From Sphaerolaimus hirsutus (Eukaryota; Nematoda; Chromadorea; Monhysterida; Sphaerolaimidae): 64,000 bases of DNA. Location: NCBI GenBank assembly GCA_964036195.1, contig OZ038450.1, positions 28,894,794 to 28,958,793 of the forward strand. The letters run 5' to 3'. Below, piece after piece: positions 8,173 to 46,574 of the stretch. The notes beneath the pieces were generated by a model that saw only the letters and a program-made list of their open reading frames with translations, was not told where the DNA came from and ran no database searches. A program made the translations under genes and the position numbers. Every line of letters starts with the position of its first letter. Positions within the stretch are counted from its first letter, which is position 1.

Positions 8173-8362
8173 ATTGAAACAAGTCTGATGATAAAGCGAT
8201 TCTGCAGGGAAATTATGTGTTCAAATACCTCTGTACTTTGTATGTTTTTTTATCAACTAATAAAAATTTACAAATAAAGTAGGTATCATCTTTGGTGTTA
8301 TTTATATATTGACACCACGTATTAAATATACCTACGAATTATTCCTCAATTTCAGGTTTAAA

Positions 8363-8576
8363 ATGGCCAAATTTCTATTAGGAATTTCATTGTTGCTTCT
8401 GGCACTTATCCAATCTCCAGCGGATGGATTTTTTCAATCGCTCTTTCAATTTGGTTCTACTAAAAAAGATAGTTTAATGCATTATGCGGATCTCAATAAT
8501 ACTGCCAATAATGGCGTTGAATATTATCCCTGGGAAGGTGGAAATCTGACCGCGTTGCAAAAAAGAATGCTCCTAG
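8363..8576 (+). CDS. VWA gene exon 1: signal peptide and N-terminus
   Basis: Residues 1-71. The start is the ATG seven bases after a good acceptor (cctcaatttcag), with AAAATGG context. An upstream in-frame ATG at 8309 lies before that acceptor and would bury the signal peptide, so I rejected it. The acceptor implies a 5' untranslated exon or a trans-spliced leader. Hydrophobic core ends near Ser-Pro-Ala-Asp. Donor gtgagt, phase 1. Confidence 0.8.
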
Positions 8577-11500
8577 GTGAGTTTTTGACAATTGACATTT
8601 TTTCCGCTTTGACACCATTTGTCAAAATGTTGTCAAAATGTTATCAAATGTAATGGGTGGGTGGTGGTTCCATTCCAGGGTTTCAATAAACTGTGAATGT
8701 AAAATAAAAAGTGGAAAAGTATTAAAAAATTACAGCAGTCAAAAATCAGAGTTTTGAAGCTTTTCACAACTTTGTGTGCACTAGAAAGTTTCCAGTGTTG
8801 CTTTAAAAAGTATTTACTATTCCAGTAATTTCCTCAAAAATGCTCAAAAATAAGTATAATGTCCATAAATGGAATCACTTTACATGAGTATCATATAACT
8901 GGTTCAATAACAGCAAAAATGTGAACGCGTCATGAGCTGAATTTGGAAATGTAAAAAATTTAACTTGTAGAAAGTTCAATCGACTACTACACATTTAATT
9001 CTGTGGTGGACATAAAGAATGCATCAATATCATTCCCACATTTACAAAAAAAAAATTGGTGACTTACAGTTATAAGTCGGTGTTACAGCACAATGACAAA
9101 TAGGAGCTAAAGCGACCAATTCAGTGTAGACAAATTACAAATACACAAGAAAGCTTAGAAATATCCTTCCCATAATTGACATGTTGAAATCACTAACTTA
9201 TCGTCTCCAAAAATTATCCAAAAAGTTCCAGTGGTACTTAAGATATAGGTAAATCAAAATAAAAAATTTAGCCATTTGTCGGCAATTCCAACGAGAAATG
9301 TTGCCGACAAATAGCGAAATTTTTATTTCATTTATAAATCAAGAACCACTGTAGCTCAAGAAAAAATTTTTTACACGATGTAGATATCGGTTAGTGCTTT
9401 CAACATGTCAATTTGGGGATGGATATCCATAAGCGTTCTTGAGTATTTGTGATTTGTCGACACTGAATTTGTCGCCTCAGCTCCCTATTTGTCGTTGTGC
9501 TGTAACTCCCGCTGAAACTTTTGCAGAAACGAAATGCGTGTGCGACTACATCATCATGATTGACCAGTCCACGGAAATGACCAGTGGCAGTTTTAGAGCG
9601 GTATATTCCAGTAATATTGATTAGTGGTGTAAAAGTGCCGCTGGCGCTTGGCGCTAGCGCCAAAGCAAAGGATCCCATGGCGCGCTGCAGTGTAGTTAAA
9701 AGTACTGAACTTTTTTCAAAGTATACGTAAACGTAAAGTATTTGTTTTTTACTCACACCCTGAGTACAGAAAACGTAAAGAAATTTTTGTTACTTTTACT
9801 CAAGAGTAAACATGAGAAAAATACTTTTCCACCCAGAAAACGTAAACGTGAGTCATCAAATCAAATCAAATCAACTTTATTACCGCTCTGCCGGCGCGCG
9901 TCAAAAGGGTAATACCAAAAAAGAGTAAGCCACTAACGCGTAGAACGAAGTAACTTAGCACCAAAAAAGTCAGGCGTCGAAATGAGTGAGTATTTTTGAG
10001 GAATTTTGCCCCAATCTTCACTTGAAAATCACTAATTTTCTTGCGTTATTGACCATTTTAACCTTCAAATTCACTAGTTTATGAGTTATTTGCCATTTTA
10101 AGCCATTTTTAGAATTTTTCCCTATTTTTCGCTGTTTTCTCCCTTTTCCCCCCATCTACCCCTTGAAAAAGCCTATAACAAAACCTATCTGGAATACGTT
10201 TTCTGTACTCAAATACTTTCAAAAAGTATACGTAAAAGCGAGTACAGGTACTTTTTACAACTGGGATCCATTCAGCTTTGGTTGGAAAAGTCCCATGGCG
10301 TTTATGGCGCTTGGCGCCATTTTGTCCTGGCGCCAAAGGAAACCCAAAGTCAAAAAAGCGCCATGGCAATATCAAGTTTTTTGGCGCTTTTTACATCACT
10401 AATTCTGATTGCGTATCGGTGATAAAGTTCCCTAGTAAAGTAAACTTCCCACTTCTCAGGTATTGGCATTTATCTCAACACTTATAGACACCATAAACAT
10501 CAGCCCCAGTCAAACGCACATTGGCGCTGTGGGTTTCAGCAATAGGGTGAATATTTTTCTGAATTTATTGGATTCCACATCGAGACAAGAGTTTCGGGAA
10601 CAGCTTTTCAAGTGGACATTGACTGGCGGACTGAGAAATCCAAAAGAGTTTGTTTGGAATGTTTTTTGATTTTGTACTACATTTTAGGTTATTTAGTAAT
10701 GTTTTACATTTTTTACTTATTTGGCACACTGCCAATGTAACAAAAATAAATGAGCAAGTGTCGGAGAATCGACATAAATATATCGAATAAACCAAAGTGA
10801 TTTATGCATCATAATAATTATATAATTAAAAAGTTAGAATCTTGGCACCACGCCAACAAGTGCGTACAAATTGTAATGTACAAAAAATAGGCACATCACA
10901 AAAATCATGGTCAACATAAGGAGCCTGAAATTGTCTCTGACTTGTAACTTGTAAATACATCCACAAAACTTTCAATTTCAATTTAAAAATTGCCATTATT
11001 TCTCACCACCACAAATCACAATTCCCACTATTTTCACTCGCGCAGCGCGTTCGACAAAGCTCACAACATGTTCACTGAACATTTCCGCCAGGAATCCTAC
11101 AAGGCAGTGGTGTATTTTACACATGGAGCGTTGGTTTTTTTGTTCAAAATGTTTTTTTGAAACGCGCAGAGAGGTGATAAAAAATCGGGCTTTATCACGT
11201 AAAAAATAGGTTGTTTTCTATCATATCCTTACGGGGGGGGAGTTATTCAAGCGGGGAATTATTCAGTGGGGAATTAATCCGGCAAATACGCGTTTTTGAA
11301 AGATGTAGGTTCACACTAATGTGTCAGGGAAATCACTCAATTGAACAGTGAAAAAGTGTTTTCACTGCTATTATTGTGCGACACAAATGCATACCGTATT
11401 TCCTCCCAATCCCCCACACACCGCCTAATAACCCCCCTCAAATTAACCCCCCCCCAACAAATTTAGCTGGGGAAATAATAAACCCCCATGGGGGTATTTC

Positions 11501-14500
11501 GAGGTAATACGGTAGTTGTAAAATGTAAAACACTCCTACACAAATTTCACCAAAAATTCAGGCATACAGATGGCGTGGACCCGACCCATTCCGCTCAAGT
11601 ACTAAGACAAGATTTTAAATTGCCCATCATTCTCGTCGGTGAGTGTTTTAATTGGAAAATAAATTTGTCAAAAATGTACCAAAATATCGAACATCAGATC
11701 TCATGATGAGAAACAAAACGTAAAACGTAAACGATGATAAACAAAATGTAAAAGGTGATAAAAAGATTCACACAAATGAAAAACCGAAAATTCGGAAAAT
11801 TTAATTTATGAAATTTTTTAACGTCCCCTGACAGCATTCTCCTCGTGGAATAAAAACGTAATAATGATAAAATTATCATTTTTCAGGGGTGCCCACTCCA
11901 TCTTCGATGGTGCCTTCTACAGCATTCAAAGAATTTTATGCCATAACAGGGGATCCTAATCATGTTTTGGTACCAGAACATTTGGAAGATTTGGTTTTGG
12001 AACAGGCAAAATTGCAGGTAAATATGTGAATTATTGTCGCTTTTGAAACAATTTGAGATGCGATAAAAGCAAAAATTACCTTATACCGAGCCAAAAACTG
12101 CACTTTTCCACAATCAGAGTTCAATTCCACAAGTGAAGGAGTGAAAAACAGTTTGAAAAGTGAAAAAGCAATTAAAAGTTTACTTTTCTTTTGAGTTTTA
12201 CTTCTCCACTTCCAGAACAAGGTTGAACTTAATTCCTATCCATAAAATTTCAAAAATAGTTTGTCCCCAATTTTGTTTGTTTGTTTGTGAATCTGTTTTC
12301 ATTCAAAACATGCTCAGAAAAACTCAGGGAAAGTTTCTTGGCAATCTGCCAAACATTCCTTTTTTATTTTGCACATTATATTTTCACTGCCCTACAGCTG
12401 AAATTTGGCGGGCAGCAAACATAATTAAATAAGTGGTAGCAGAAAAATATATACAAAACCATGAGTAATGTGAGTTGAGTGCTTCGCAAAAAAAGGAAAG
12501 ATTGGCAGCTTGCCATGAAACTTCCTGACAGCTATTTTTGGCATATTTTGGATGAAAACACATGTTAAAAAAATACATACGTTTTTCCATTTATGGGTCA
12601 TGATTTGCGCAAAAATTGCTTTTAGGCATCAATATTAATATACGTATTTATATCCTCGAATAAGACCCCAGGGGAGTTATTATTTCGTCAGACGTTTTGG
12701 ACGGGGGGAGTTATTCAAGGGGGTGTTATTCAAGAGGGTGGTCCTATTCAAGGATATACGGTAAGCATTTAGGGCATCGCTTGCTAGCATTACTTGCTAG
12801 CGGAAACCGGCCCCAAGTATTCCGGGTAAACGTAAATACATTTATGCAACTTTGCAAATATCCATCGCACAGCCCCTGCTACCGTGCTACGGATGTTCGT
12901 TGCACACGTCGACAACTCAAGCTATAACAACGACAACGACAATGCCATGTGAGTTGTCGGAATAAATGTTGGAAGAAAAATTGAAGGAAAAATTGTGTTT
13001 GGGAAAATGAGTGTGTGGAGATTTTGTGAAGTGTCTTGATGCTGGGATGAAAAATAGTGTTGATAACACTTAGCATTTCAAGAAATCTTTAATTTGTAAA
13101 CAAAATTTGTTTGTTTTACAATTCTAACAACTTGCAATGCTCACAGACACCGGTTGCGAGTGCGATTTTTATATTGTACTGGAAGATTCCGAACGTCTGG
13201 GTGAAGCCAACTTTAATGCAGTGAGTGAAAACTTTGATTTTGAAACTTGATGTGCTAAAAAAACGTGGATAATCGTAACCAGGGTTGGCAAAATCTCAGA
13301 AAAGAATAAAAATAGAATAAAAATAAAATGGAAAATTGAAGAATAAAATAAAATAAAATAAAATGGCAAATTTCAAAATAAAAATAAAAATTGTATAAAA
13401 ATTCGAATTTTTGTACAATCTTTGTAAAATTGTATACAAATTCATATTTTTGTAAAAATTGTATAAAAATTGATGTTTTTTGTAAAAAAAATTCTGTTGT
13501 TTATAGTTCAACCTGTTCATTCGCGGAGCTGGGGCAGTCCCAAGCCATGTAAAGTGTCAAAATGTCATATAAATGGAATGGAAAGTGTCAATTTTCATGA
13601 AAATGTTAAGTAAAGTGTCAATTTTCATGACAAATATAAATTTAAGTGGAAACTGTAAAGCAAATTGTATCCAAATTTTATCTTTTGTATCCAAATCTTG
13701 TTGTTTTTGTAACCAAATCTTATGTGAACATTTGGATACAAAAACATAAGATTTGGATACCAAAATATAATGTTCGATACCAAAACATAAGATTCAGATA
13801 CACAGTTTACACTCTGCAAGACATTTGTCATGACAATTTTACTTTGCTTGACATTTGAGATGCCAATTGACTCTTTACTACATTTGTCATGACAATTGAC
13901 ACTTTGCATGATGTTTTTTACAAATGCGCCCAGCACACTCCAATAATCCTTCTACTGAAAATGCAAACCATTCTTATCGATAATTGTAACTTAAAACTTG
14001 CAACTAGCTACCAATACCTACTGCAGGCAACTTTTGCAAAGTAATGGAAAAATGTGTCACACAAAAAATGTTTTTCATGTTTAGGTCTAATTATCACATT
14101 TTTCTGACCTTGCATGTAAGATTCTGATTTTTTGTAAACTTTCTGTAAAATTTTTGTAAAATTTTTGTAAAATGGTCCATTTTATTATTATTTTGGAATA
14201 AAATAAAATAAAATAAAATGAAACAAGAATAAAATTAAAATAAAATACATTTTTATACAAATTTTATACAATTTGTATACAAATGATTTTTATAAAACCA
14301 ACCCTGATCGTAACTATGTAAAATGTGTTCCTGCTCAAAAGTGGATCACGTTTGTAGCGATCAAAAACCTCCCATTTTTCTCATAAAATAAAAAAGAAAC
14401 ATAAAAGTACTATTTATCCAGGAAAAATAGAACCGAAGTAGTATTTTACTTGAACATCCTTTACTAAATTTATCTACTTATGAAAAACCACTCTTTTTTC

Positions 14501-17500
14501 TACGAAGAATCTACGAAATCTAAGAAAAAGTCTACGAAGAATCATTTTTTCATTTAACGGTTATATAAATGCACCAAATTCACCCTGGGTGCGAGCTATG
14601 TAATGAGAAAACTTTTGCTTTTTTATGCAGATGAAATATGGTAAATTTCGTCGCTCACTGTGACGTCAGTTGACCATACCCAAGTACACATACCGTATTT
14701 TTACGCACAGGATACAAATAAACGTAAACATACTTCACAGGATTTTTCTGTAGTATGCATCCCCACCCCACTCAATTTCAAAATCTCAAACACGCTTTTG
14801 CAACTGTGTAAATAAATAACAGCTATGATTTTGCACACCCAATTTTGCACAGCTGCGAGATTTCGCCGTATCATTCGTGGACGGCTACAAAGTATCGCTG
14901 GCGGACATAAAAATCGGCGTTCTAACGTATGGCAAGGCGCCAGTAGCGTATTTCGATTTGAAGACCTCAAAGAACGTGACCGAAGTGCAGAAACATTTGA
15001 AAGAATTCATGTATGTGGCGGATACGGATGTAAACTGGGCCACGTGAGTTTTTCGATTTTCTAAAAAATTTCAGTTGAAAAATCCGGGGGTGTTTAAATG
15101 AGTTTTGTTGTTTGTGATGCAACAAATGTGCCTGCGCACACTAGTTTTCAACCGAAACTTGAAAACTCATAAATCAACTTTGAATGCATTTAACTTTTTT
15201 AGAATAAAACTGACCGTCAACTGCAGTTGACGGCGTTTAAAAATTACTAGGAATTCTAGAAAACTAGTGTGTGGGCACAATAAGTTTCTTATAATATTTC
15301 CCAATCCACTCAAATTCAACATTTCAGATCACTGGCCTACGTACAACAAGATTTAGTAATGTCCGCCCGGCCGAGACAAACCGTATTCATGTTTCTCAAA
15401 GGAACGTAAGTTTTGAGAGCGAAAAAATGCCACACGTTTAATCAACAAAAAAGAGAAATTTACCGTATTACCTCGAAATACCCCCAGGGGGTTTGTTATT
15501 TCGCCAGCAAAATTTGAGGGGGGCGGGATAATTCGAGGAGGGTTTATTTGAGGGGGGTCTATTATTTTGCCAGAAATTTTTGGAAATTTGCCACAGTCAG
15601 ACGTATAAAAATCAGACAATTACATAGATGTACATGTGTTTATAGTCATAGATGAACACATAAACCCTTCCCTAACGTCACTCAATCATAGGTTTTAACG
15701 TGTGTTCTGCATTGTTCAGATCACAAACTGTAGTACTTGTCATGTACGTTCTCTTTACATTCAATTTGAGGGGGTATTTCGACGGGGGGGGGGAGTTATC
15801 ATTTCCTCAGCCAAATTTTAGGGGGGTATTTCGAGGGGGGTTAATTCGACGTAATACGGTATTCACATTATTTCACAGCGAAGAAGACACGACCGCGGCG
15901 GAAAGAGCGATCGACACTTTGAAATCGATGGGCGTAAATATCATAATTTTGTCGCTGGATGCGAGCGATGCAGACATAACGAAATTGGGAGCCACGTCTA
16001 CTGATAACCATTTTATCAATGTGAAAAGTCCATCTGAACTGAAACCAGCTTTGGAAGACAAGGTAATACTTTGATCAAAATACATTTATACTTTTTATAC
16101 CTTATTCTTGTGTATAAAAAAAACTATATAAACTTTATAAAAACTTTACCTTAACAGCGCCGTCAATGGGGGTTGTCAGGGTATTTAAATTTGGATCGGA
16201 ATTAATATGTCAATTTACATGTTCAGCAGAAATAATTTCCAAAACATTTTTCGAAATTGAGGGCACTTTTATATAATGGACATAATGTATGATATTTTCA
16301 ATTTCCTGTATTTCTGAACATTTCACTCCAATTTTTTCTCCTATTTTCCATCACTGACAGCAGCAAATGAGCACTGTACAATTTGTAGAAAAACCCATTC
16401 AAATAAAGCATGACAATTAGCATTGAAGAAATTACTGCAAGATTTATAATTAAAAAATCTCAGAAGATATAAGATTTTCTGTGATTTATATTTTTCCACA
16501 ATTTTTGAGGGAGATTTTCTTTTTGAAAGATTTTTTGAGATTTTTTAAAATATCATAAAATCTCTCAAATTCTGATATTTATATTTTCCCAGGGGTTTTT
16601 TTAAGATTGAATTATATTCTATTCTTGAGGGATTTTCTGAGATTATATTTTTCCAAAAATTGATGATTTTCTCAATGCTAATGACAATCTACATTTTGAA
16701 CACACATTCACCACCCAAAACCCCCTTCCAGCTGGACGCCATGCTAACAAGTTGCCACCAGTCGGACTGCTTCCCTGCGAGCACCACCTCGAGCAGCACA
16801 TCGACCACCTCCAGCAGCTCGTCATCCAGCACATCGCCAAGCACCTCGTCATCGAGCACGCCGACGAAAACTACCAGCAAAAGCACTTTGTCCACTTCGA
16901 AGACATCTTCGGGTTGGTTTGGCAGTTTGGATGTGTGTGAAGTGCAGGGGTATCTTGAATTTTGGCCCTCCGAGTGGTTGGATGGATAGCTGAGCGGCCT
17001 TCGGGATAGATAGATAGCTGGGAAAATTTGGGGGGGGGGGGGTTGGGGGGTTTGGGGGGGTGTGGTGGTTCGATAATTAGGCTATTTCAGGGTGTACCCC
17101 CCATTCGAGACCCCTGGTGAAGTGTTCATGATTATGATGTTGGTTTCACATTAATGGCAAAAATGGGTTTCTGGGGTATTTATGTGGACTTGGAATGGAT
17201 GTGTATGAAGTGGTGTCCTTTCACCAGCATCATGAAATTTGCAGTGAAGTGTTCCACGTTGGCTTCACCTACCTTCACCACTACTTCACGCACTTCCAAA
17301 AGTGTGCAAGACACTTCACGACACTGGTACTTCCACACAGTTCACCAATGTTGCTGCTCACACTAGTTAACTAAGAAATATAAACTCAAATTGGGTGCTC
17401 ACAAATCAGCTCTGAATGTATTTCAGTTGACTTGAGTAGATAGTCAATCTTAACTGCAGTTGACAGACACCTCATTGCGGTAAACACGAAATGTATTCAA

Positions 17501-32500: not shown

Positions 32501-35500
32501 CGATGTGCATGAACAATTATTTTTTAAGGTGAAAATGGGCAAAAAAATCAAATATTAGTGAATTTGTGTAAAAAAAGGGCAACACTTTTTTCAAAAAATG
32601 TTTCAGATAAATGGGGGTCCATCAGGGGATGTGTTGGTGAACCATGTGGAAGGCAAGCACCTCATAAAATATTCCAACATTCTGGGTGTCATAATTAGGT
32701 TGAAATAACATGACACTTCACTTGTATATGTGTAAAAACACCATGGCACTTTTACAATCACCAGTCCTATACTCAAATTACTTTACACCCTGCACGCGTG
32801 GTTCCCGCTGGAAGCGTGCCAACGATTTTTTTTCTGCATGCGATTTTCAGAAAAAGTTGAAAAAGTCACAGCTGTTATGACGCTTATACGTTAACTTATT
32901 CACAACAATGATTGTTTTGATCTTTATACAAACATCGCATACTTGATTATTGGCACGCTTCCAACGTGAGACATAAATGAGTGCGAGGGCAGAGTATCAT
33001 GTTCGCCGAATATACCAGAAAATTAAAACACCTCCATATTTTATGCTTTCAGGGGATTGGAAATGGTGCGCGATCAGATTATCGAGCCATCTTTGGGCCA
33101 AAAAAGGGACACATATTTCATATTGGTGGCTGAAGGATTGTTAGAATTTTGTATCTTTTTTAGAATCTAGTTTTTCTCTCAATCTTCGAATACACTTACA
33201 TTAAAGGTGCAATTACAGCTCAATTATGTTGTGAAAATTATGACATAATACGAGTCGAAAAGATAGTGCCAAACGTAAAATTTTTGTCATTTTTGCGGCG
33301 ACTTCACGGATATGTGTATTTTACCTTGTTACAGCTACAGTAAACGTAAAAATACAATGCAAAAATAATTATACTTTTGACGAAATTTTCGAACTCATAT
33401 ACGACACAATCGAGCTGTAATCACAACGGCATAAAAATAGCATCATCCCATAAATATCAGCTACGACAAAGCCAAAAACTGCTGTGATCCGCCCTTTGAT
33501 GCTGCCGCCGATATCAGAAAGTTGGTAAATTTGTTTTTGGCAGTTGCCGTTGGCACTGCAGAAGCACAGAGACCTCGGAATTTGAACGAAATGACCGGTG
33601 ATAAGGGCAACGTGTATCAACTGGTTCGTTTGATGGATTTGAATGGCATAAAGATGTGAAATTTGAGAGCTGTATTAATGGGAATATAGATACCGTATTT
33701 CCTCGAAATACCCCCCTCAAAATGGGCACTATGAATTTGTGGTCCGGGAAATGCATAACAGATGTTCAAAACACTTACTGTGTTATGTTAGAACATCGTT
33801 TATACCATCTACATCCTTATATAAGGCTGTAAGAACTTATAAATGGTGGTTATTGTTGCATTTTTCACGTTTTTCTCTCAAAATTTTCACTCTGAAAAAA
33901 TAAACCCCCCGGGGGGTAATTCGAGGAAATACAGTAGATAAATGTGGTAAAAGTGCAGAAAACTTTACCACTGCAACACACGTCAATATAACTAGTCACT
34001 ACAAGTATGAAATCTGACATCTTGCACCGCTATCATCTAAATTTTTATTTAAAAACCCGATTTGTAAAAAGTTTTTTAGAGGAAATCCACACTGTCCACA
34101 CAGTATTTGATATAGTAGATGTTTTGGTATTTGCACTTTTGATACTGTGAAAAGTGATTAAGTGGAAAACACACTTAAATCACTACTAGGCTGTAGTGAT
34201 GCAGTCGTTTCCTTAATTGAACGCCACTTTATGATGCATTTACACCAGCACATTTTGGGCTCATTGAAAATAATGTCAAAAACATCACCCCCCCCCCATT
34301 TCAGTCAACAGGATTGACCAAAATCCCAGAAAGAATTTTGTCATTAACACCTTGTGACATTGGAGGTAAGTCATTGGACTGGCGCAACATTGACAACTTT
34401 AATACTTGTTAAATTTATTATTTTTCAGGTTGTGTGTGCGACCTGTACTTTGTGATTGACATGTCAGAGAGTGTAGAAAAATCGGGTTTCTTTGAGGTCA
34501 GTTCAGTTGTTAATGGACTTTGAAAATTTTGAAAGCACAAATTATCAGTTCCGCAAGCGGAAAAGTAAACGTTAAATATTTTTAAGTGATAAGTGAATTC
34601 GCTGGTAAAAAGTAGAAATTGAAGTAAGTTGAGAAGTGAGAAGTGAAATGAGAAGTAAAAATTAAAAGCGAAATAAACTTTTTCTTCTCAGTTCACTTCT
34701 CCCTTCTCATTTTACTTCACTCGTGACTTTTACTTATTTTACCATTTTACTTTTCACTTCTCAAATGTTTTATTTACTTCTCCACTTGTGAGTGGATTTG
34801 ACACGTGGTGAAAATAAAATTCCACAAAAAAACACTTCCAGGAAGGATTTTTTATCGAGAACATCATCGACAACTATGGGTCGAAAATGTCCAGATCAAA
34901 GGTGCAAATAGGCCTGGTAATTTTCAACGACATTGTTGTTTATCACGCATTGCCGGGTCAATACGAAACTGCCCCAGAGTTGCGCAAATACATGAGCAGC
35001 AGGGTGTTTCAGACGGGAGATACTAACACATCCATGTGAGTAATTTGAAATACAGATTTTCAACGTGTGAAAAACTGGAGATTCCCTTAAGATGGTACCC
35101 CCGTGGGCTGCTTTGATTCAGGGGTATACCCACCCCAGTAGGGGGCTTACCCCCATTGGCGTTTCCAGGGGTACCCAATTTTTGGGGATTACCCATTGAT
35201 AATCTTGGTCACCAGCCAAAAATGCCAAAAAAAATTCATTGAATACAAATAAAATAGCTAACAATAGGTAAACAGCGTTCGGATCAGGTCCGGCAGTCAG
35301 TTTCTGACCTGACTGCTGGCGCTATAACTCCCGCTGTGGGGTGAATTAAGAGATGAAATTTGGGTGGGACGTAGCCGACATTCCCAACCTAATATACTCC
35401 AACGCAGGGGCGACGGCGACCCCCCTAACTGTTGGTCGCCGTATACGCGCAAAAAAATTTACAGAATTTCGCTGTCCGCGTCAAGTCCGGCACTCAGTGG

Positions 35501-38500
35501 TTTTTCATCACTTCGGGTGCCATCACACCAGAAACGCGGACAGGACAAAGCTGAAACTGGGGGGATATAGCCGACACCCCTCCCCTTACTGTACACTAAA
35601 TGGCGGGCGCCGGCGACGCACCAAAGGTGTCGCTCGCGGGTATAACGCGTTTTTAATAAATGTGCTGTCTGCATCAGGTCCGGCACCCTATAAATTTTTT
35701 CAAAAATGCTCAATGCAGTCATGTAATGCAGTTTTACAATTCTACAGACCCATACGATACTGTACAATGCAGTGGAGTTACCTGTTAAGCGATATTTTAG
35801 CAATGCCCATACAGTTGCATCCTAAAAATACACTTAAAATATATTTATTTTTTAGACACTTTAAAAGTTGGTTTAGGATGCCCTCTAGGTAAGGGTTTAA
35901 GGTATAAAATTGCGTAAAAAACTTTACCCCAAAAATGCCCCACTAAGGAATTTTAATGGGGGTGAATGTGATGAAGTCACTTATGACATCATCACCATAC
36001 AAATTTGTACTGTGATGATGTCATAGGTGATGTCAGAACAGTCACCCCCATTAAAATTCCTTAGTGGGGCATTTTTGGGGTAAAGTTTTTTACGCAATTT
36101 TATACCGTAAACCCTTCCCTAGAGGGCATCCTAAACCAACTTTTCAAGTGTCTAATAAAAAATATATTGAAAGTGAATTTGGCTCGGTGAAACGCAAGTT
36201 GTTCCTGGACCTGATGCGTACACTGTATCTGTAAAAAACAGCGCCGTATACGCAGTGAGCGACACTTTTGGTGAGTTGATGGTGCCACAGGATGTTGACG
36301 ATAACCCCCCAAAATTTCAGCTATTTCGTGTCCGCGTTTCTGGAGTGATGGCACCCGAAGTGATGAAAACCACTGGGTGCCGGACTTGACGCGGACAGCG
36401 AAATTCTGCAAAAAGTTTTGCGCGTATACTGCGACCCACACTTAGGGGGGTCGCCGTCGCCCCTGCGTTGGAGTATAGTAGGGGGGGAATGTCGGCTACG
36501 TCCCACCCAAATTTCATCTCTTAATTCACCCCACAGCGGGAGTTATGGCGACAGCAGTCAAGTCAGAAACTGACTGCCGGACCTGATCCGAACGCTGTTT
36601 ATATAACCTAATATTTTAGGGGGGGGGGTAAACGAGGGGGGTATTTCGAGGCGGGGGGGGGGTATTTTTTCGCCAGAAATTTTTCGACCTGCCGGTACTA
36701 ATTTGTTGTTTGTATCGTACGCAGACGTAGAAAAATGCAACAATAAGCAACATGTATAAAAGTCTATAGACTTACCGTATTTGCTTGAATAGTACCCCCC
36801 CTTGAATAATTCCCCCCCTCGAATAATCCCCCCCTGTAAGACGAGTGAGGAAATAATAATTCCCCCCCTCGAATAATCCCCCCCTTAAAGAATTTGCTCA
36901 ATTTATTGTGCTTAATTTAAACAAAAATGGCACGTTTTTGTGTGAATAAAGCAGATTTCATCAAATGAGTTGATAGAAACATGGTTGAAAATGTTGACAA
37001 AATAATAATTCCCCCCCTCGAATAATTCCCCCCCTCGATTAGTTCCCCCCTCAAAATAGTCTGATGAAATAATAATCCCCCAGGGGGATTATTCAAGCAA
37101 ATACGGTATATAAGGCTGTAAATAGATGGTAATAACAGGTTCTAACGTAACACAGTCATTGTTTTTAACGTAGTTTTGCATTGCCCGGATCACAAAAGCA
37201 GCTTTTGTCATTTACACTCTCTTAACACTAAGGAGGGGTATTTCGAAGGGGGCTAATTAATTCATAGTGTCTATTTTGATGGGGGTATTTCGAGGGGGAG
37301 GGGCAATTCGAGGGGGACTATTTCGAGGAAATACGCTACAATGGTGAAAATTTGGAGAATGGTGTAAATAAATTTGAGCGATTTTAAGCACTTTGTGCCC
37401 TTTCATTCTAGTTCGTGCAATACGCAACCAAAACAAAGTTTACATAAAATCCCCTAATTTTACATTTTTCACCTGATTCTCATTTTAATTACGTCTAACC
37501 CTAAAAATCCCTCAAATTTTCTGAGATTAAGATCCCCCAATAAAAAATTCGCTCCTCCTCGACTACAAGCAAAATGACAAAATTGTCAAATTGAATTTTA
37601 TTTGACAAAAACAACAACAACCAAATATTGTCAATTTAGGGCACTGCTGCAAGTACAGGCAGACCTCCGCGCAGTGCCAGCGAGGGAGGGAGTTAGAAGG
37701 TCAATGTTACTCGTGTCTGATGGCAGGTAAGTAGTTTTTCAACTGTGCATTTGGCACATGGTTTTAGTCTTTTGATGCCTTGTGTAGGCAAAGTTTTGTG
37801 TCAAGTCAAGTGACAACTACAAGTAAACATACCAAATTGAATATACCTAGTCAGTTAATTACATCATGTAAAAGTTAACTTGTCATCAAACCCAATTCAC
37901 AACTTATAACTTTACTTATTACCTTCCATTTCATGTGACATCCCATGTGTGCAATTGCTCTGTCAAGTGGCACATATTTAACAAATTGCACACTGATGCA
38001 ATGATTGTATTTATTTATTTAGCAATTCCTACCCCTGATAAGTAGCTGATACGGAGCTTTTATTGCAGGCCAGTGCCTATGTTTTTCCTGTACTTGACAA
38101 TGCCAATCAAATTTTGACAACATCTTTCTTGTTATGCCTGGTTTGAAATATCTCACTTTACAATAACTCACTCATTTATTTGACAGGGGAGGAATTGATA
38201 TCTGAGGACTAGTGATGTAAAAGCGCCATGGCGCTGGCGCCAAAGCAAAAAGCGCCATGGCGCTTCTGGCGCTTGGCCCCATTTTGCTCTGAAGCCATTA
38301 GCGCTTGGCGCTGTGGTCGAAAAGCGCCACGGCGCTTTTGGCGCTAAGCGCCAACGCCTTGGCGTTTTTGACATCACTACTGAAGACCAAATCTTTTACC
38401 TATTTGCATTATTTATGTAGAATATAAAGTGAAAAATGAAACATGAAAATTCAGAGAAATTTGAAATTCTTTCCGAAAGTAGTCCGAGAGTTACGATATT

Positions 38501-39773
38501 TAATGATTTCATGCCATTTTCTCAGACACAACTTTGGAAAGACCCCAGTGCCAGTGGCAGAGGAACTAGCAAAGGCAGGGGTGGAAAATGTCGCAGTGGG
38601 TGAGTGCTTGCGCAAATTCCCTCAGTAAATTACCGAAATTTTCAGCTTTCAGAAAAATCAGTTTACATAGTCAGCTTGCACATGCCAACCATTAATGCCA
38701 AGACTAGCGATGTAAAAGCGCCATGGCGTTGGCGCTAGCGCCATAATCAAAAGCGCCATGGCGTTGGCGCTAGCGCCAAAATCATAAGCGTCATGGCGTT
38801 GGCGCTAGCGCCAAAATCAAAAGCGCCATGGCGTTGGCGCTAGCACCAAAATCAAAAGCGCCATGGCGCTTCTGGCGACCTTTCGCTCTGCGCTTGACAC
38901 CAAAGTATTTTTGCTTTTTACATTCGTCAGCCAGGACTGGCACTATGTTTTGCACCATGTAAACAAAAAATTTACGCGTATTTCAGAGTAAACGTGAATA
39001 CCCAATATCAAATCTGCATTTTGAATGGTAACTTGGGCATAAAAATTCAGGTATACCAGGCATCAATGGACTTTTGAAACCGACCGACATCAAAGAAATG
39101 TTGGCAATTGTCGGTGGCCACGCGGAGAATTTTGTCCTGGTGACAAAAATCGGAGATCTTAAATACAAAGCTGACGAAGTGTACAACAAACTGCAATGCT
39201 CTAAGTGCAATGGTGAGTAGTGTCTTTTCATTGCCAGTATAATATAGGCACGGCAATTTCTATGCAATTTACCATGTTAACTTTATCCGGACAGTGGGGC
39301 CAGTGATTTCTAAGTGTTTGGTGATAGATTTTAGACGAACACTTTTTCATGAAAATAACTGTGCCCACTCATGAAGCATCAAGTAAACTGGACAGACAGA
39401 TCGCCACACTATTAGGGTGTCAACATAAACTTTTTGGCGGAAAACGGAAACGGAAAAAAATTTGCACATGCCGGAAAACGGAAACGGAAAATTTTTTGCA
39501 CTTGCCGGAAAACGGAAACGGAAAATTTTTTGCACTTGCCGGAAAGCGGAAACGGAAAACGGAAAGTTGACACCCTACACACAATGAATGATACCATATT
39601 TTGATGAATAAGGTCACATGAAAACTGGACCAAATTCGCCCGAAGTAGATTAAATTCAAATATTCAAAAGATTCAAGGCTGTAATTCAATTCAATTCAAT
39701 TGTAAGGTGTAATGTCGCTGGAGTATATTATACATTTCATTTGTTAATTATAAATATTATTTCAGAAAGATAA
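8363..39773 (+). CDS. Secreted protein with six VWA modules (35 coding exons; whole span)
   Basis: The joined exons give 4569 nt (1522 residues plus stop) with every phase consistent. The order is: signal peptide (MAKFLLGISLLLLALIQS...), a short N-terminal stretch to about residue 71, VWA 1 (about 79-228), linker, VWA 2 (261-429), Ser/Thr linker (about 446-543), VWA 3 (549-about 745), Thr linker, VWA 4 (769-936), 190-residue Thr/Ser/Pro exon, VWA 5 (1137-1321), VWA 6 (1331-about 1515). C-x-C-D precedes modules 1, 2, 3, 4 and 6. A Cys pair follows each module except 1, which has C-x2-C in the linker exon. VWA folds bind extracellular ligands; the ligand here is unknown. It is probably an extracellular matrix, mucus or immune-type protein by architecture only. 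The MIDAS triad looks complete only in module 6. I do not recognise a named orthologue. Confidence 0.85.
9527..9600 (+). CDS. VWA gene exon 2: start of VWA 1
   Basis: Residues 72-96, 74 nt, phase 1 to 0. Encodes C-V-C-D then YIIMIDQSTEM. The MIDAS DxSxS motif is degenerate (D-Q-S-T-E). Acceptor acttttgcag, donor gtatat. Confidence 0.8.
9627..9687. repeat. hAT-beta fragment (left end)
   Basis: Starts agtggtgtaaaagtgccgc and carries ggcgct/ggcgcc words up to the gamma element. A beta right end (gcgctttttacatcacta) lies at 10383-10401 on the other side, so this is probably one beta element split by a gamma insertion. I found no clean outer duplication. Confidence 0.5.
9688..10263. mobile_element. 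hAT-gamma MITE
   Basis: Left terminus CAGTGTAGTTAAAAGTAC, right terminus the complement of GTACTTTTTACAACTG, with arrays of agtatacgtaaa. Same family as 4012-4516. No exact 8-bp duplication was found. Confidence 0.65.
9854..9982. mobile_element. Small insert in a gamma element, retroelement-like
   Basis: Interrupts the gamma element at 9688-10263. It is bracketed by TGAGT (9849-9853 and 9983-9987) and starts catcaaatcaaatcaaatca, a short tandem tail like the 3' ends of some non-LTR elements, followed by a GC-richer stretch. 129 bp, no coding. Confidence 0.4.
10283..10401. repeat. hAT-beta fragment (right end)
   Basis: GGCGCC/GGCGCT-rich, ending ggcgctttttacatcacta. It lies in the intron 60 bp before exon 3 of the VWA gene. 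Confidence 0.55.
10460..10647 (+). CDS. VWA gene exon 3: middle of VWA 1
   Basis: Residues 97-158, phase 0 to 2. Carries the helix 1 / strand 2 signature THIGAVGFSNRVNIFLNL. The donor is gtttgt, weak but required: reading on hits a stop at 10667, while the join restores a continuous module. Confidence 0.75.
11394..11512. mobile_element. TA-1 MITE, short
   Basis: CCGTATTTCCTCCCAATCCC at the left, GAGGTAATACGG at the right, TA on both sides, C/G runs inside. It lies 49 bp before exon 4 of the VWA gene. Confidence 0.7.
11562..11638 (+). CDS. VWA gene exon 4: VWA 1
   Basis: Residues 159-184, phase 2 to 1. Encodes HTDGVDPTHSAQVLRQDFKL then the hydrophobic strand PIILV. The usual Asp-Gly after this strand is absent, so the third MIDAS ligand is missing. 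Confidence 0.75.
11887..12017 (+). CDS. VWA gene exon 5: end of VWA 1
   Basis: Residues 185-228, phase 1 to 0. Contains GVPTPSSMVPSTAFKEFYAI and the C-terminal helix ending KLQ. Donor gtaaat. The inverted duplication begins within 20 bp downstream. Confidence 0.8.
12873..12948 (+). CDS. VWA gene exon 6: short Thr linker
   Basis: Residues 229-253, 76 nt, phase 0 to 1. Encodes PLLPCYGCSLHTSTTQA followed by five Thr. It was inferred because exon 5 ends in phase 0 and the next exon needs phase 1; this is the piece that fits both. The same exon is conserved in the inverted copy at 62546-62621 with one synonymous change. Confidence 0.75.
13147..13220 (+). CDS. VWA gene exon 7: start of VWA 2
   Basis: Residues 254-278, 74 nt like exon 2, phase 1 to 0. 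Encodes YTGCECDFYIVLEDSERLGE. Donor gtgagt. Confidence 0.85.
13280..14306. mobile_element. hAT-epsilon element with a proven empty site
   Basis: 1027 bp. Starts CAGGGTTGGCAAAATCTC and ends AAAACCAACCCTG, flanked by an exact 8-bp duplication ATCGTAAC (13272-13279 and 14307-14314). The inverted copy of this region (around 62210-62240) has no element here, only the uninterrupted ataatcgta, so the insertion followed the duplication. Internal A/T arrays (aaaataaaataaaatgg) and inverted repeats of aaacataagatt. No transposase. Confidence 0.93.
14853..15043 (+). CDS. VWA gene exon 8: VWA 2
   Basis: Residues 279-341, phase 0 to 2. Carries the strand 2 signature DIKIGVLTYGKAPVAYFDL and ends at VNWAT. 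Duplicated at 60994-61184 (minus) with three substitutions. Confidence 0.85.
15133..15282. repeat. Short palindromic repeat (CACACTAGTTTTC ends)
   Basis: gcgcacactagttttcaacc at the left and gaaaactagtgtgtgggcac at the right with an internal dyad tcaactgcagttga. Related copies at 45836-46030 and, within the duplication, 60768-60910. Probably a small MITE. Confidence 0.6.
15328..15405 (+). CDS. VWA gene exon 9: VWA 2
   Basis: Residues 342-367, phase 2 to 2. Encodes SLAYVQQDLVMSARPRQ then TVFMFLKG, the position of the usual DG. Asp is replaced by Lys. Confidence 0.85.
15463..15859. mobile_element. TA-1 MITE
   Basis: CCGTATTACCTCGAAATACC ... GACGTAATACGG, flanked by TA. Contains several internal G-runs with gaggggg words. 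Present also in the inverted copy at 60185-60575. Sits between VWA exons 9 and 10. Confidence 0.8.
15879..16062 (+). CDS. VWA gene exon 10: end of VWA 2
   Basis: Residues 368-429, phase 2 to 0. Encodes TEEDTTAAERAIDTLKSMGV, then NIIILSLDAS and FINVKSPSELKPALEDK. The inverted duplicate breaks inside the homologue of this exon. Confidence 0.85.
16075..16680. other. Intron sequence without recognised element
   Basis: AT-rich. From 16440 it holds a loose repetition of gattttctgagatt and aaatttttga words, perhaps an old decayed repeat. No gene. Confidence 0.4.
16732..16912 (+). CDS. VWA gene exon 11: Ser/Thr linker
   Basis: Residues 430-489, phase 0 to 1. Starts LDAMLTSCHQSDCFPAS and then is almost pure Ser/Thr with Pro and Lys. 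Donor gttggt is non-consensus but phase-correct. Confidence 0.75.
17538..17699 (+). CDS. VWA gene exon 12: Ser/Thr linker
   Basis: Residues 490-543, phase 1 to 1. Starts GTATSSAST; a 15-bp unit (tcaagcgcgtcaact) repeats about three times, then a Ser tract and TTPSTTPISTTLPPGG. Likely O-glycosylated if secreted (inference). Confidence 0.8.
18116..18183 (+). CDS. VWA gene exon 13: start of VWA 3
   Basis: Residues 544-566, phase 1 to 0. Encodes ECECDIVFMMETTSRS. The first MIDAS Asp is replaced by Glu. The hAT-alpha copy 2 sits 51 bp downstream in the intron. Confidence 0.8.
18235..19163. mobile_element. hAT-alpha MITE, copy 2
   Basis: 929 bp, nearly identical to 314-1247. Exact 8-bp duplication ATCAGGTG (18227-18234 and 19164-19171). 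Termini TAGTGATGTTAAAGGCACC and complement of GGTGCCTTTACATCACTA. It lies in the VWA intron between exons 13 and 14. The low divergence of the two copies implies recent mobility. Confidence 0.93.
19173..19384. repeat. Foldback with CAGTTCCGCAAAATGAGA ends
   Basis: Begins cagttccgcaaaatgagaag next to the alpha duplication and closes with ttctcactttgcggaactgg. The arms repeat aagtgaaatggca. Related foldbacks at 24347-24601 and 34546-34800. Confidence 0.65.
19647..19749 (+). CDS. VWA gene exon 14: VWA 3
   Basis: Residues 567-600, phase 0 to 1. Encodes IILWVADVVRFLGVSPTK then MHIGAVTYAEGITKKI. Confidence 0.8.
19895..20144. mobile_element. TA-2 MITE (TACTC ends), copy 1
   Basis: 250 bp from TACTCCAGTTACTTTACACC to ...CATGTCAGCCGAGTA, flanked by TA. 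The same 243-250 bp unit occurs at 26866-27110, 32770-33012 and 42185-42432. Non-coding. Confidence 0.82.
20202..21842. mobile_element. hAT-beta element, 1641 bp
   Basis: Left end TAGTGATGGAAAAAGCGCC, right end complement of GGCGCTTTTCCATCACTA, exact 8-bp duplication GTCGTAGG (20194-20201 and 21843-21850). Both termini carry dense GGCGCC/GGCGCT arrays of about 200 bp; the AT-rich middle contains a TA-1 element (20753-21203). No transposase frame is visible. It lies in the VWA intron between exons 14 and 15. Confidence 0.9.
20753..21203. mobile_element. TA-1 MITE nested in hAT-beta
   Basis: CCGTATTTCCTCGAAATACC ... GAGGAAATACGG with TA on both sides. Its sequence closely matches the interrupted copy beside the N gap at 51609. 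Confidence 0.8.
21953..22046 (+). CDS. VWA gene exon 15: VWA 3
   Basis: Residues 601-631, phase 1 to 2. Encodes LNQYTSDPWAIADAITDLEF and GGKADSN. Donor gtacgt. Confidence 0.78.
22327..22466. mobile_element. TA-1 MITE
   Basis: 140 bp, CCGTATTTCCTCGAAATACC to GAGAAAATACGG, TA-flanked. Located 82 bp before VWA exon 16. Confidence 0.75.
22549..22635 (+). CDS. VWA gene exon 16: VWA 3
   Basis: Residues 632-660, phase 2 to 2. Encodes GLAEAAMLINGAGGRKNARK and the strand FIVDIAHG. Confidence 0.8.
23012..23272. mobile_element. TA-1 MITE
   Basis: 261 bp, CCGTATTTCCTCGAATTACC to GAGGAAATACGG, TA-flanked. Closely related, in opposite orientation, to 33693-33934. Confidence 0.75.
23577..23750 (+). CDS. 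VWA gene exon 17: VWA 3
   Basis: Residues 661-718, phase 2 to 2. Encodes IKSEIEKSGGGIIVLGVPTP and MVGMASDTSAV. The GVPTP segment matches exon 5, so modules 1 and 3 share it. Donor gttagt. Confidence 0.8.
23968..24638. repeat. Nested foldback cluster
   Basis: Outer arms: cgcacactagttgacacaca at the left and gttaactagtgtgtgggc at the right. Inside lie a GGCAGTCCCAAGCCCTGTAA foldback (about 24001-24189), a palindrome on gcagagcgatct/agatcgctctgc (24190-24345) and a CTAGTTCCGCAAAATGAGA foldback (24347-24601). At least four inverted-repeat units are packed or nested in 670 bp of the intron before VWA exon 18. Confidence 0.6.
24733..24860 (+). CDS. VWA gene exon 18: end of VWA 3 and Thr linker
   Basis: Residues 719-761, phase 2 to 1. 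Encodes VPRVESLYFETPVLYHIMSP, the C-x4-C pair CNPDTC and a Thr tract. It is much richer in G and C at third positions than neighbouring exons. The polypyrimidine tract is a C run. Confidence 0.78.
24902..25246. repeat. Two adjacent foldbacks with CCCTGTAAAATG ends
   Basis: Each unit starts cc(a)g(a)ccctgtaaaatgtaaa and ends ttttacagggtccggg or similar. Related sequence at 7490-7545, 28716-28880 and 41880-41950. Short MITE family of unknown type. Confidence 0.55.
25264..26862. mobile_element. hAT-gamma element interrupted by an LTR-like insert
   Basis: Left end CATAGTTGTTAAAACGTA, right end complement of TACTTTTAACAACTCTG. The left duplication is GTACCCAG (25256-25263). The right one is also GTACCCAG, but it is split: G-TA, then the TA-2 element 26866-27110, then TA-CCCAG. 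Removing TA-2 with one TA restores the exact 8-bp duplication. Internally, 25364-26465 is a second insertion. Confidence 0.85.
25364..26465. mobile_element. Candidate solo LTR
   Basis: 1102 bp, starts TGTAAAATAATACGG, ends ...ATGTTACACA, and is bracketed by ACTCA/ACTCG (4 of 5 identical). It interrupts a gamma element whose sequence resumes on both sides (ggtactc ... actcgcttttacgtatac). TG...CA ends, size, AT-rich start and a GC-rich stretch near 26150-26200 fit a long terminal repeat. No gag or pol. The short open frame at 25924 matches nothing I know. Confidence 0.5.
26866..27110. mobile_element. TA-2 MITE, copy 2
   Basis: 245 bp, TACTCTAGTTACTTTACACC to CATGTCCGTCGAGTA, flanked by TA. 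It landed inside the target-site duplication of the gamma element. Confidence 0.88.
27278..27351 (+). CDS. VWA gene exon 19: start of VWA 4
   Basis: Residues 762-786, 74 nt, phase 1 to 0. Encodes CKCDFYFVLDSSATV, with MIDAS D-S-S-A-T one residue off consensus. Donor gttagt. Confidence 0.82.
27550..28167. mobile_element. TA-3 MITE (GTCGACAAGTCC family), copy 1
   Basis: 618 bp. Ends ATTGAGGCGTCCAATTCT and complement of AGAATTAGACGTCTCAAT, flanked by TA. The interior repeats gtcgacaagtcc. Second copy at 50960-51606. Confidence 0.8.
28320..28516 (+). CDS. VWA gene exon 20: VWA 4
   Basis: Residues 787-851, phase 0 to 2. Encodes MKRFMEVFFRDTQYNIDPN then FVRVGGVDYSTSVVDFFPV and LNTGNVKR. The Met at its start is internal. 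Confidence 0.85.
29127..29207 (+). CDS. VWA gene exon 21: VWA 4
   Basis: Residues 852-878, phase 2 to 2. Encodes SALEQIGKMESQHPAPGHK then AIILFYDGR; the Asp-Gly of the third MIDAS position is present. Confidence 0.85.
29480..29651 (+). CDS. VWA gene exon 22: end of VWA 4
   Basis: Residues 879-936, phase 2 to 0. Encodes ALAQQFQHEQWLIIVFQIG and DLAGKSGYPIGVDTCYDLPS. Confidence 0.82.
30336..30905 (+). CDS. VWA gene exon 23: mucin-like Thr/Ser/Pro linker
   Basis: Residues 937-1126, 570 nt, phase 0 to 0. Starts FSLAKILPCNPSECPGTTTT, the Cys pair closing module 4, then about 165 residues of TTTSTTPS-type repeats. At DNA level this is a tandem array of 12- and 15-bp units (agtaccacaac/agtaccacacca). 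Length is likely to vary between alleles. Extended, probably O-glycosylated spacer (inference). Confidence 0.82.
30394..30890. repeat. Coding tandem array of exon 23
   Basis: Units agtaccacaaca and agtaccacacca/g alternate about 35 times and code TSTTPSTT-type peptide. Open frames on the opposite strand here are by-products of the repeat. Confidence 0.85.
31407..31490 (+). CDS. VWA gene exon 24: start of VWA 5
   Basis: Residues 1127-1154, phase 0 to 0. Encodes TTPTPSTECPNVIFLIETSE. It lacks the C-x-C-D of the other modules, and the MIDAS Asp is Glu. Donor gtcagt. Confidence 0.75.
31767..31901 (+). CDS. VWA gene exon 25: VWA 5
   Basis: Residues 1155-1199, phase 0 to 0. Encodes MAYVREMIHKLKVSAEG then THVAVATFSTNDKRTSVLF. 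Donor gttggt. Confidence 0.8.
32278..32345 (+). CDS. VWA gene exon 26: VWA 5
   Basis: Residues 1200-1221, phase 0 to 2. Encodes DNIDYMLDNFDAHAHLGISD. Confidence 0.78.
32770..33012. mobile_element. TA-2 MITE, copy 3
   Basis: 243 bp, TACTCAAATTACTTTACACC to ATGTTCGCCGAATA, TA-flanked. Ends 40 bp before VWA exon 27. Confidence 0.8.
33053..33139 (+). CDS. VWA gene exon 27: VWA 5
   Basis: Residues 1222-1250, phase 2 to 2. Encodes GLEMVRDQIIEPSLGQKRD then TYFILVAEG, with Glu at the usual Asp-Gly position. Donor gttaga is weak; chosen because it joins in frame to the next exon. Confidence 0.72.
33461..33623 (+). CDS. VWA gene exon 28: VWA 5
   Basis: Residues 1251-1305, phase 2 to 0. Encodes FYDKAKNCCDPPFDAAADIR, then LAVAVGTAEAQRP and EMTGDKGNVYQL. 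Donor gttcgt is non-consensus; using it joins VYQL to the LTKIPERIL helix in the next exon, as the VWA fold expects. An alternative reading continues to a stop at 33656-33658. Confidence 0.72.
33693..33934. mobile_element. TA-1 MITE
   Basis: 242 bp, CCGTATTTCCTCGAAATACC to TTCGAGGAAATACAG, TA-flanked. Lies in the intron after VWA exon 28. Confidence 0.75.
34305..34365 (+). CDS. VWA gene exon 29: end of VWA 5
   Basis: Residues 1306-1325, phase 0 to 1. Encodes STGLTKIPERILSLTPCDIG, the last helix and closing Cys. Confidence 0.78.
34429..34496 (+). CDS. VWA gene exon 30: start of VWA 6
   Basis: Residues 1326-1348, 68 nt, phase 1 to 0. Encodes GCVCDLYFVIDMSESVEKSG. D-M-S-E-S is a full MIDAS DxSxS motif, the only perfect one in the protein. 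Confidence 0.85.
34546..34800. repeat. Foldback rich in agaagtgaaatg
   Basis: AGTTCCGCAAGCGG at the left and imperfect inverted copies of aagtgagaagtg/cacttctcactt between. Third member of the family at 19173-19384. Confidence 0.5.
34842..35035 (+). CDS. VWA gene exon 31: VWA 6
   Basis: Residues 1349-1412, phase 0 to 2. Encodes FIENIIDNYGSKMSRSKVQI then GLVIFNDIVVYHALPG and QTGDTNTS, which supplies the MIDAS Thr. Confidence 0.85.
35271..36599. mobile_element. TA-4 long-inverted-repeat element
   Basis: 1329 bp. Starts AACAGCGTTCGGATCAGGTC and ends with its complement (GACCTGATCCGAACGCTGTT), flanked by TA. Arms of several hundred bases diverge by point changes; a second perfect-looking dyad occupies the centre (35870-36130). 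No transposase; the 179-codon open frame at 35353-35892 reads along one arm and the dyad. Lies in the VWA intron after exon 31. Confidence 0.82.
36775..37106. mobile_element. TA-1 MITE
   Basis: 332 bp, CCGTATTTGCTTGAATAGTA to TTCAAGCAAATACGG, TA-flanked. More TA-1-like debris lies at 36610-36760 and 37130-37335. Confidence 0.78.
37640..37726 (+). CDS. VWA gene exon 32: VWA 6
   Basis: Residues 1413-1441, phase 2 to 2. Encodes ALLQVQADLRAVPAREGVRR then SMLLVSDGR; the MIDAS Asp-Gly is intact. Confidence 0.83.
38210..38379. mobile_element. hAT-beta MITE, short
   Basis: 170 bp. TAGTGATGTAAAAGCGCC to GGCGTTTTTGACATCACTA, with CTGAGGAC (38202-38209) against CTGAAGAC (38380-38387), 7 of 8. Interior is nearly all GGCGCC/GGCGCT. 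Confidence 0.85.
38526..38599 (+). CDS. VWA gene exon 33: VWA 6
   Basis: Residues 1442-1466, phase 2 to 1. Encodes FGKTPVPVAEELAKAGVENV. Flanked on both sides within 330 bp by short hAT-beta insertions in the introns. Confidence 0.83.
38705..38929. mobile_element. hAT-beta MITE, short
   Basis: 225 bp. TAGCGATGTAAAAGCGCC to GCTTTTTACATTCGTCA, with GCCAAGAC (38697-38704) against GCCAGGAC (38930-38937). The interior contains four tandem units of about 40 bp (aagcgccatggcgttggcgc...). Confidence 0.82.
39051..39212 (+). CDS. VWA gene exon 34: end of VWA 6
   Basis: Residues 1467-1520, phase 1 to 1. Encodes GIPGINGLLKPTDIKEMLAI, then NFVLVTKIGDLKYKADEVY and the closing pair LQCSKCN. Confidence 0.83.
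39413..39577. mobile_element. Small hAT-like MITE (CGGAAA motif)
   Basis: 165 bp. TAGGGTGTCAAC to GTTGACACCCTA, with CACACTAT (39405-39412) against CACACAAT (39578-39585). Interior is tandem cggaaaacggaaacggaaaa with ttttttgcacttgc spacers. It lies in the last intron of the VWA gene. Confidence 0.78.
39766..39773 (+). CDS. VWA gene exon 35: terminal coding exon (8 nt)
   Basis: After the acceptor tattatttcag the reading gives Glu-Arg-stop in the required phase, so the protein ends two residues after the C-S-K-C-N closure. Its short coding part makes this the least secure exon; a further linker exon elsewhere cannot be excluded. Confidence 0.5.
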
Positions 39774-46362: not shown

Positions 46363-46574
46363 TCACTCCCTCGCCGCCCTACCCCTCCCCCTTGCCCCAA
46401 AAGGGGAGCCCCTCTTTGCAGTCTGCAGCTTGCCCCTGGCCGCCCTGCCGCCCAAAGCGGGCGCCAAGTGCCTGGCGATCACGCCGCCCGCCGCTCCCCC
46501 CGGGGGGCCGCTGATCTGCGACCTGTGCAGTCGCGCCGCCGCGCCGCTCGTCGACGCGCCGCCTGAATCTTCCT
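46363..46574 (-). CDS. Acidic/RG gene, terminal exon
   Basis: Acceptor ccatccag after a long C run; encodes EEDSGGASTSGAAARLHRSQ ... RGKLQTAKRGSPFGARG and RGRAARE, stop TGA. The plus strand is also open here but lacks a donor at the exon edge. Confidence 0.72.

Follow-up and report, generated by a model that had tools for sequence, protein, structure and literature searches.

The closest described counterparts of the protein reported here are multi-VWA extracellular proteins, an already known kind to which it belongs. Among these, PTMP1-like proteins have two von Willebrand factor A (VWA) domains and no other domains and bind collagen, and matrilins carry EGF domains and a C-terminal coiled coil. 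In von Willebrand factor (vWF), cysteines at the ends of the A domains close the domain. The metal-ion-dependent adhesion site is common in VWA domains but not obligatory. PMC3919171 describes most VWA domains of collagen VI as lacking a conserved metal site, places end cysteines mostly in the alpha 4-6 chains rather than in alpha 3, and states in general terms that terminal cysteines close VWA domains. The molluscan shell protein BMSP is described in PMC7747718 as having several VWA domains, which duplication gave rise to.

Here we analyse a window of 64,000 nt (the whole stretch of DNA under study) from the nematode Sphaerolaimus hirsutus. As read from its sequence, the locus at 8363-39773 on the forward strand is a real many-exon animal gene, which probably encodes a secreted protein of six VWA domains and mucin-like linkers. 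The gene is of an ordinary matrix or adhesion type. A six-VWA protein of this type, or an intron plan like the one described below, was not found named among the papers listed in the literature searched. We hold with high confidence that this is a single gene of approximately 36 exons and 1550 residues, whose six VWA modules come from one duplicated exon set.

Reconstruction of the Gene

The stretch 8201-42000 was read, and the exon chain was rebuilt by eye and then joined by script. The first-pass annotation had proposed 35 exons between 8363 and 39773 with 1522 codons and consistent phases, and this was re-derived exactly: the joined exons give 4569 nt with one stop, which is terminal, junction phases agree along the chain and internal stops are absent. 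The chain and its phases thus stand, but one internal exon (11046-11129) was missing from it and its last exon of 8 nt is dispensable. Once corrected, the model comprises 36 exons, with 1550 codons in a stop-free open frame. All 35 introns are GT..AG, as the sites were chosen that way, with a median length of 610 nt and a maximum of 2604 nt. GC content, intron length and repeats are reminiscent of another nematode, Romanomermis culicivorax (36% GC, a median intron of 405 bp and 48.2% repeats; PMC3890508, PMC10879605), but its median intron is shorter than the one here. Phases match at every module border, and the locus has a single start with a hydrophobic N-terminus; a second start was not noticed in it.

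Each module is built from a set of four exons, E1 (68-84 nt), E2 (188-203 nt), E3 (78-87 nt) and E4 (163-236 nt), of which E2 and E4 are sometimes split. Unless stated otherwise, the exons given here are on the forward strand and were placed by both the joined chain and an exon scan. Exon 1 (8363-8576, phase 0 to 1; joined chain) contains the start codon and the hydrophobic N-terminus, a likely signal peptide. Module 1 consists of E1 (exon 2, 9527-9600), E2 (exon 3, 10460-10647), E3 (exon 4, 11046-11129, the one added here on the evidence given below) and a split E4 (exons 5 and 6, 11562-11638 and 11887-12017), and exon 7 (12873-12948) holds its end and a Thr-rich linker. Module 2 follows with E1 (exon 8, 13147-13220), E2 (exon 9, 14853-15043), E3 (exon 10, 15328-15405) and E4 (exon 11, 15879-16062); its end and a Ser/Thr linker are on exon 12 (16732-16912), and exon 13 (17538-17699, phase 1 to 1) is Ser/Thr linker as well. 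Additional or skipped linker exons of this phase 1-to-1 type may exist. In module 3, E1 (exon 14, 18116-18183) is followed by a split E2 (exons 15 and 16, 19647-19749 and 21953-22046), E3 (exon 17, 22549-22635) and E4 (exon 18, 23577-23750), with the module end and a Thr linker on exon 19 (24733-24860). Module 4 has E1 (exon 20, 27278-27351), E2 (exon 21, 28320-28516), E3 (exon 22, 29127-29207) and E4 (exon 23, 29480-29651), and exon 24 (30336-30905; chain, scan and tandem-repeat search) carries its end and a long Thr-rich repeat linker. E1 of module 5 (exon 25, 31407-31490) precedes a split E2 (exons 26 and 27, 31767-31901 and 32278-32345), E3 (exon 28, 33053-33139), E4 (exon 29, 33461-33623) and the module end (exon 30, 34305-34365). 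Module 6 comprises E1 (exon 31, 34429-34496; chain, scan and motif scan), which carries the only intact DxSxS, E2 (exon 32, 34842-35035), E3 (exon 33, 37640-37726) and a split E4 (exons 34 and 35, 38526-38599 and 39051-39212). Lastly, the optional exon 36 (39766-39773; exon 35 of the earlier model) has 8 nt including the stop and was placed by the joined chain.

Two introns of the gene hold other repeats. An inverted-repeat element at 35269-36601, with arms of approximately 313 nt that are 91% alike, is located in the intron after exon 32. A dispersed repeat of approximately 940 nt occurs at 314-1251 and, 95.5% identical, at 18235-19167 in the intron after exon 14.

Exon Prediction Independent of Homology

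Exon borders were also predicted with a splice-aware finder that combines codon usage, donor and acceptor matrices and a phase-keeping chain, with homology unused. The gene was divided into six blocks, each tested with training on the rest; together they hold 33 exons, which is the whole model except exons 1, 12 and 36. At penalties of 5, 7 and 9 the held-out finder recovered 28, 28 and 30 of these 33 exons exactly, of which 27, 27 and 29 were also in the phase of the model, and it predicted 42, 20 and 11 extra exons, respectively. Blocks 1, 2, 4 and 5 were complete at penalty 9 (0, 0, 2 and 0 extras). Recovery was weaker at this penalty in block 3, which contains module 3 (4/6 exact, 3 in phase, 8 extras), and in block 6 with module 6 (5/6 exact, 1 extra). 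The held-out finder is an independent check on the exon borders. It was noted earlier that gene finders relying only on open frames would miss this gene. That is true, as it is for most animal genes, but the greater part of this one is recovered by a simple splice-aware finder.

Exons were also scanned for without chaining, at score 14 and with training on the gene model itself. This gave 44 candidates on the forward strand, of which 34 are model exons and another is exon 1 starting from an acceptor further upstream; two of the other nine fall within the gene. On the reverse strand the scan gave 23 candidates, seven of them opposite the gene and five in the inverted copy described below. Chaining over 8600-39700 produced 38 forward exons, including all 34 model exons located there, with a score of 436.8, against 19 exons and a score of 104.0 on the reverse strand, both scores coming from circular training on the whole model. 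By the held-out recovery, the chain is more than chance.

We consider it highly improbable that two or more adjacent VWA genes were falsely joined here, or that the gene is a decayed one. The gene is known here from DNA alone, several introns exceed 2 kb (the longest being the one of 2604 nt) and the module 3 region is predicted poorly under held-out training, all of which would suit such a reading. Against it stand the one stop-free open frame across 36 exons, the single start with its hydrophobic N-terminus where a second was not noticed, the agreement of phases at each module border and the excess of the forward over the reverse chain score, which was obtained by training on the model. A single continuous gene is thus our preferred reading, and its recovery illustrates that a split gene of 31 kb can be rebuilt from raw sequence by a reader.

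A Missed Exon in Module 1 and the Ends of the Gene

Modules 2 to 6 each have an E3 of 78-87 nt in phase 2 to 2 between E2 and E4. Module 1 of the earlier model was without E3, and its VWA match ended at position 71 of the 174 positions of the profile. Intron 3 of that model contains a candidate of 84 nt at 11046-11129, preceded by AG and followed by GT. Among 84 symmetric, phase-compatible candidates in the 34 introns of the earlier model, nested variants included, it ranked first, with 12.0 against 11.2 for the best candidate elsewhere (24 nt) under a scoring model trained without the candidate exon. Adding this exon lifts the Pfam score of module 1 to 73.4 bits, from 49.2 bits without it, and extends profile coverage from positions 3-71 to 3-162. 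The held-out finder completed block 1 including 11046-11129 at penalties 7 and 9, and recovered 5/6 of the block at penalty 5. Of module 1, a profile built from modules 2-6 matched only E1 and E2 at E below 10 and did not pick up this exon.

Phase matching was blind to this exon because omission of a symmetric (2 to 2) exon leaves all phases consistent. This is the point at which the method fails: a missing symmetric exon is invisible to phase matching and visible to a domain profile.

At the 3' end of the gene, exon 35 reads on in frame via GGT GAG to a TAG at 39218-39220, and since it meets its own in-frame stop the last exon of 8 nt is just one of two possible 3' ends. Support for that exon is limited to an acceptor and a stop. 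At the other end an acceptor-like AG is located at 8354-8355, 7 nt before the ATG; a trans-splice site or an intron in the 5' UTR would be compatible with it.

VWA Domains, Metal Sites and Cysteines

The first-pass annotation predicted six hits of the VWA family profile (Pfam PF00092) in the joined protein, and the search indeed gives six VWA stretches (E = 3.8e-101). All six modules are also above the cut-off when searched singly (43.9-76.4 bits versus 23.8). VWA was the only family that Pfam matched in the joined 1522-residue version at E up to 10, where EGF and chitin-binding matches were absent. Modules 1 to 4 are followed by Ser/Thr-rich linkers, and nothing follows the sixth VWA module, which forms the C-terminal end. 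Direct reading of the joined protein shows a hydrophobic N-terminus and a hydrophilic C-terminus, and the protein is probably secreted by means of a likely signal peptide.

Only module 6 has an intact metal site in the alignment, with DMSES and SDG as motifs 1 and 3; the sites were read by eye for these two motifs, and the middle Thr could be read confidently for module 6 alone. Module 4 is partial and borderline (DSSAT/YDG), and the site reads as lost in modules 1 (DQSTE/THG), 2 (EDSER/LKG), 3 (ETTSR/AHG) and 5 (ETSER/AEG), likewise read by eye from the alignment. When all six frames were scanned for canonical DxSxS-type strings, module 6 alone matched. Such sparse matches reflect motif loss, and their reading as absence of a gene was rejected.

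When the six modules are aligned, one cysteine is invariant at each domain end. A second cysteine is present at either end of five modules, and module 5 has one per end. The single end cysteines of module 5 suggest that the second cysteines of the other modules pair with each other, although two further cysteines lie inside the module 5 domain. In the Thr-rich linker on exon 24, a coding tandem repeat of approximately 430 nt (30405-30834) consists of units of 24, 36 and 60 nt, and since these are all multiples of 3 the length of the linker could vary without a frame shift.

The most likely mechanism is that of an extracellular spacer or adhesive protein. Function was inferred here from fold and motif, and we give this role an even chance, which is set below our confidence in the anatomy of the gene. 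If expressed and secreted, the protein would have its VWA domains kept apart by linkers that are probably O-glycosylated, and the cysteines at both ends would close each domain through disulfides. Module 6, with the sole intact metal site, would bind a matrix ligand such as collagen. Modules 1, 2, 3 and 5 may instead make metal-free contacts, with module 4 as a borderline case.

Shared Intron Plan and Origin of the Modules

As claimed in the first-pass annotation, E1 starts with C-x-C-D and runs from phase 1 to phase 0 in modules 1, 2, 3, 4 and 6 (74, 74, 68, 74 and 68 nt; C-V-C-D, C-E-C-D, C-E-C-D, C-K-C-D and C-V-C-D), and the next exon starts in phase 0 after each of them. Module 5 differs, as its first exon has 84 nt, runs from phase 0 to 0 and carries C-P-N. 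An alignment of the modules with introns marked shows that the phase 0 intron after E1 is present in 6/6 modules, and so are the phase 2 introns before and after E3; the one before E3 is spread over two nearby alignment columns because of an alignment gap. Three intron positions in 6/6 modules indicate that an exon set was duplicated. The claim of exon-set duplication is therefore well supported, although only one of these positions had been seen before. Other introns are distributed more narrowly: an extra phase 1 intron in E4 is common to modules 1 and 6, a phase 0 tail intron is common to modules 1, 2 and 4, and modules 3 and 5 have one private intron each that splits E2. Intron coincidences between modules, counted pair by pair as the same phase within two alignment columns, number 40 against a null mean of 2.7, and 40 was reached in 0 of 5000 random placements; the test is partly circular, since the borders were chosen by eye with the VWA fold in mind.

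Pairwise identity between modules is 13-26% and no pair stands out, so the duplications are old. One ancestral exon set would have given rise to the six modules by repeated duplication, followed by intron changes specific to each module. It could also be proposed that the gene is a mosaic whose modules were brought together by shuffling from several VWA genes, all with one ancient intron plan beforehand. The low identities without any outstanding pair and the different outer boundaries of module 5 (phase 0 start, C-P-N) are in line with this, and phase 1 boundaries of extracellular modules suit exon shuffling in general. Yet the phase 1 intron in E4 of modules 1 and 6, the phase 0 tail intron of modules 1, 2 and 4, and the paired cysteines that 5/6 modules have at either end speak against a mosaic, and we regard it as quite improbable. 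The shared extra introns and doubled cysteines appear to fit one local ancestor more simply. Descent of all modules from one exon set is the origin that we favour.

Inverted Partial Copy of the Gene

The window contains an inverted partial copy of 12033-15989, located at 60055-63913 on the reverse strand. It holds the linker exon (exon 7) and nearly all of the module 2 exon set, with exons 8-10 complete and exon 11 cut off after 111 nt. The copied exons (60055 to 62621) are 97-99% identical to exons 7-10 and the start of exon 11, with exon 7 at 62546-62621, exon 8 at 62274-62347, exon 9 at 60994-61184, exon 10 at 60633-60710 and the 5' 111 nt of exon 11 at 60055-60165. The splice sites of the copy are intact by reading. 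Within the copy, the unchained scan read exon 7 in a frame other than that of the model. Exon 7 was considered as part of a transposon, which was rejected: it recurs along with exons 8-10, a piece of exon 11 and the introns in between, and therefore belongs to a duplicated gene segment.

Substitutions and gaps were counted from BLAST blocks, as intron 8 and the last part of exon 11 were misplaced in an alignment of the whole stretch. The copied exons show 10 differences over 530 sites and are free of indels, versus 123 of 2331 sites and 25 gap openings in the introns (Fisher p = 0.0004 for substitutions and 0.009 for gaps), with intron 9 about as conserved as the exons (6/283 sites). Five of the 10 exonic differences are synonymous and none creates a stop. 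The conservation of the exons is in line with coding constraint on at least one of the copies and lends support to the exon borders in this region.

Homology breaks off abruptly, within exon 11 at one end and shortly after exon 6 at the other, and the sequence beyond differs. A gap of 200 N at 51972-52171 lies between gene and copy, so the place and orientation of the copy rest on scaffolding. Because of this gap, an assembly artefact (a misplaced segment or an alternative haplotype) has to be weighed against a duplication. We regard it as possible while leaning away from it, since an allele would need further rearrangement to show such abrupt ends. The copy looks like a duplication of young age, or else an artefact of scaffolding or haplotype beyond the gap. 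That the process which built the gene is still active, with this copy as one of its steps and VWA exon sets still being copied in this genome, is rather unlikely. If true, it would imply that copied VWA exon sets could be recruited into new genes. The locus in any case combines a record of exon-set duplication, metal-site loss and a seemingly young inverted copy, which could help to date such events.

Other Features of the Window

Several strong exon candidates, some of them Asp- and Glu-rich, are located at 46367-49635 on the reverse strand, where there is probably another gene. Four of them were searched against Pfam and none was above the cut-off; one had a weak match to BLOC1S3 (E = 0.067). 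A tandem array with a 28-bp unit in approximately 24 copies is present at 54857-55517. Also on the reverse strand, 56181-57463 contains two exon candidates (57231-57463 and 56181-56399). Over their first 30 and 46 residues, respectively, these have matches to sialin (E = 0.0046) and to vesicular glutamate transporters (E = 6.6e-07). Pfam assigned no family to either candidate, and by these matches the region is probably an SLC17 transporter gene. Rfam at gathering scores gave no matches, and a tRNA search found none.

Comparison With Known VWA Proteins

The six modules were combined into a profile and compared with PDB sequences, and the matches given here are from the best 60 of 133. Collagen VI alpha 3 and mussel proximal thread matrix protein 1 (PTMP1) were the top matches among these best 60, and vWF A1 matched at E of about 6e-16. 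In vWF the A domains have terminal cysteines that close the domain, as is proposed here, but they sit in a different multidomain protein. Matrilins are secreted VWA matrix proteins as well, but an EGF match is absent from the present protein and its last VWA module is the protein end. The molluscan BMSP/Pif shell proteins are also matrix proteins, and BMSP has several duplicated VWA domains; they carry chitin-binding domains, none of which Pfam matched in the 1522-residue version of this protein.

PTMP1 is likewise a multi-VWA protein. It was the best match of module 6 alone (E = 8.7e-11), and the C-x2-C end of the domain was aligned too. The matched PTMP1 chain has two VWA stretches, whereas the protein described here has six, plus Ser/Thr linkers. 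Collagen VI alpha 3 matched the six-module profile over 10 stretches (E = 7.8e-135, among the best 60 of 133), and its N-terminal array resembles this protein in having many tandem VWA domains that are mostly without a conserved metal site. Unlike collagen VI, the joined protein has no Gly-X-Y stretch or triple helix when read by eye, and in contrast to the alpha 3 chain it has mucin-like linkers, and each of its modules is flanked by cysteines at either end.
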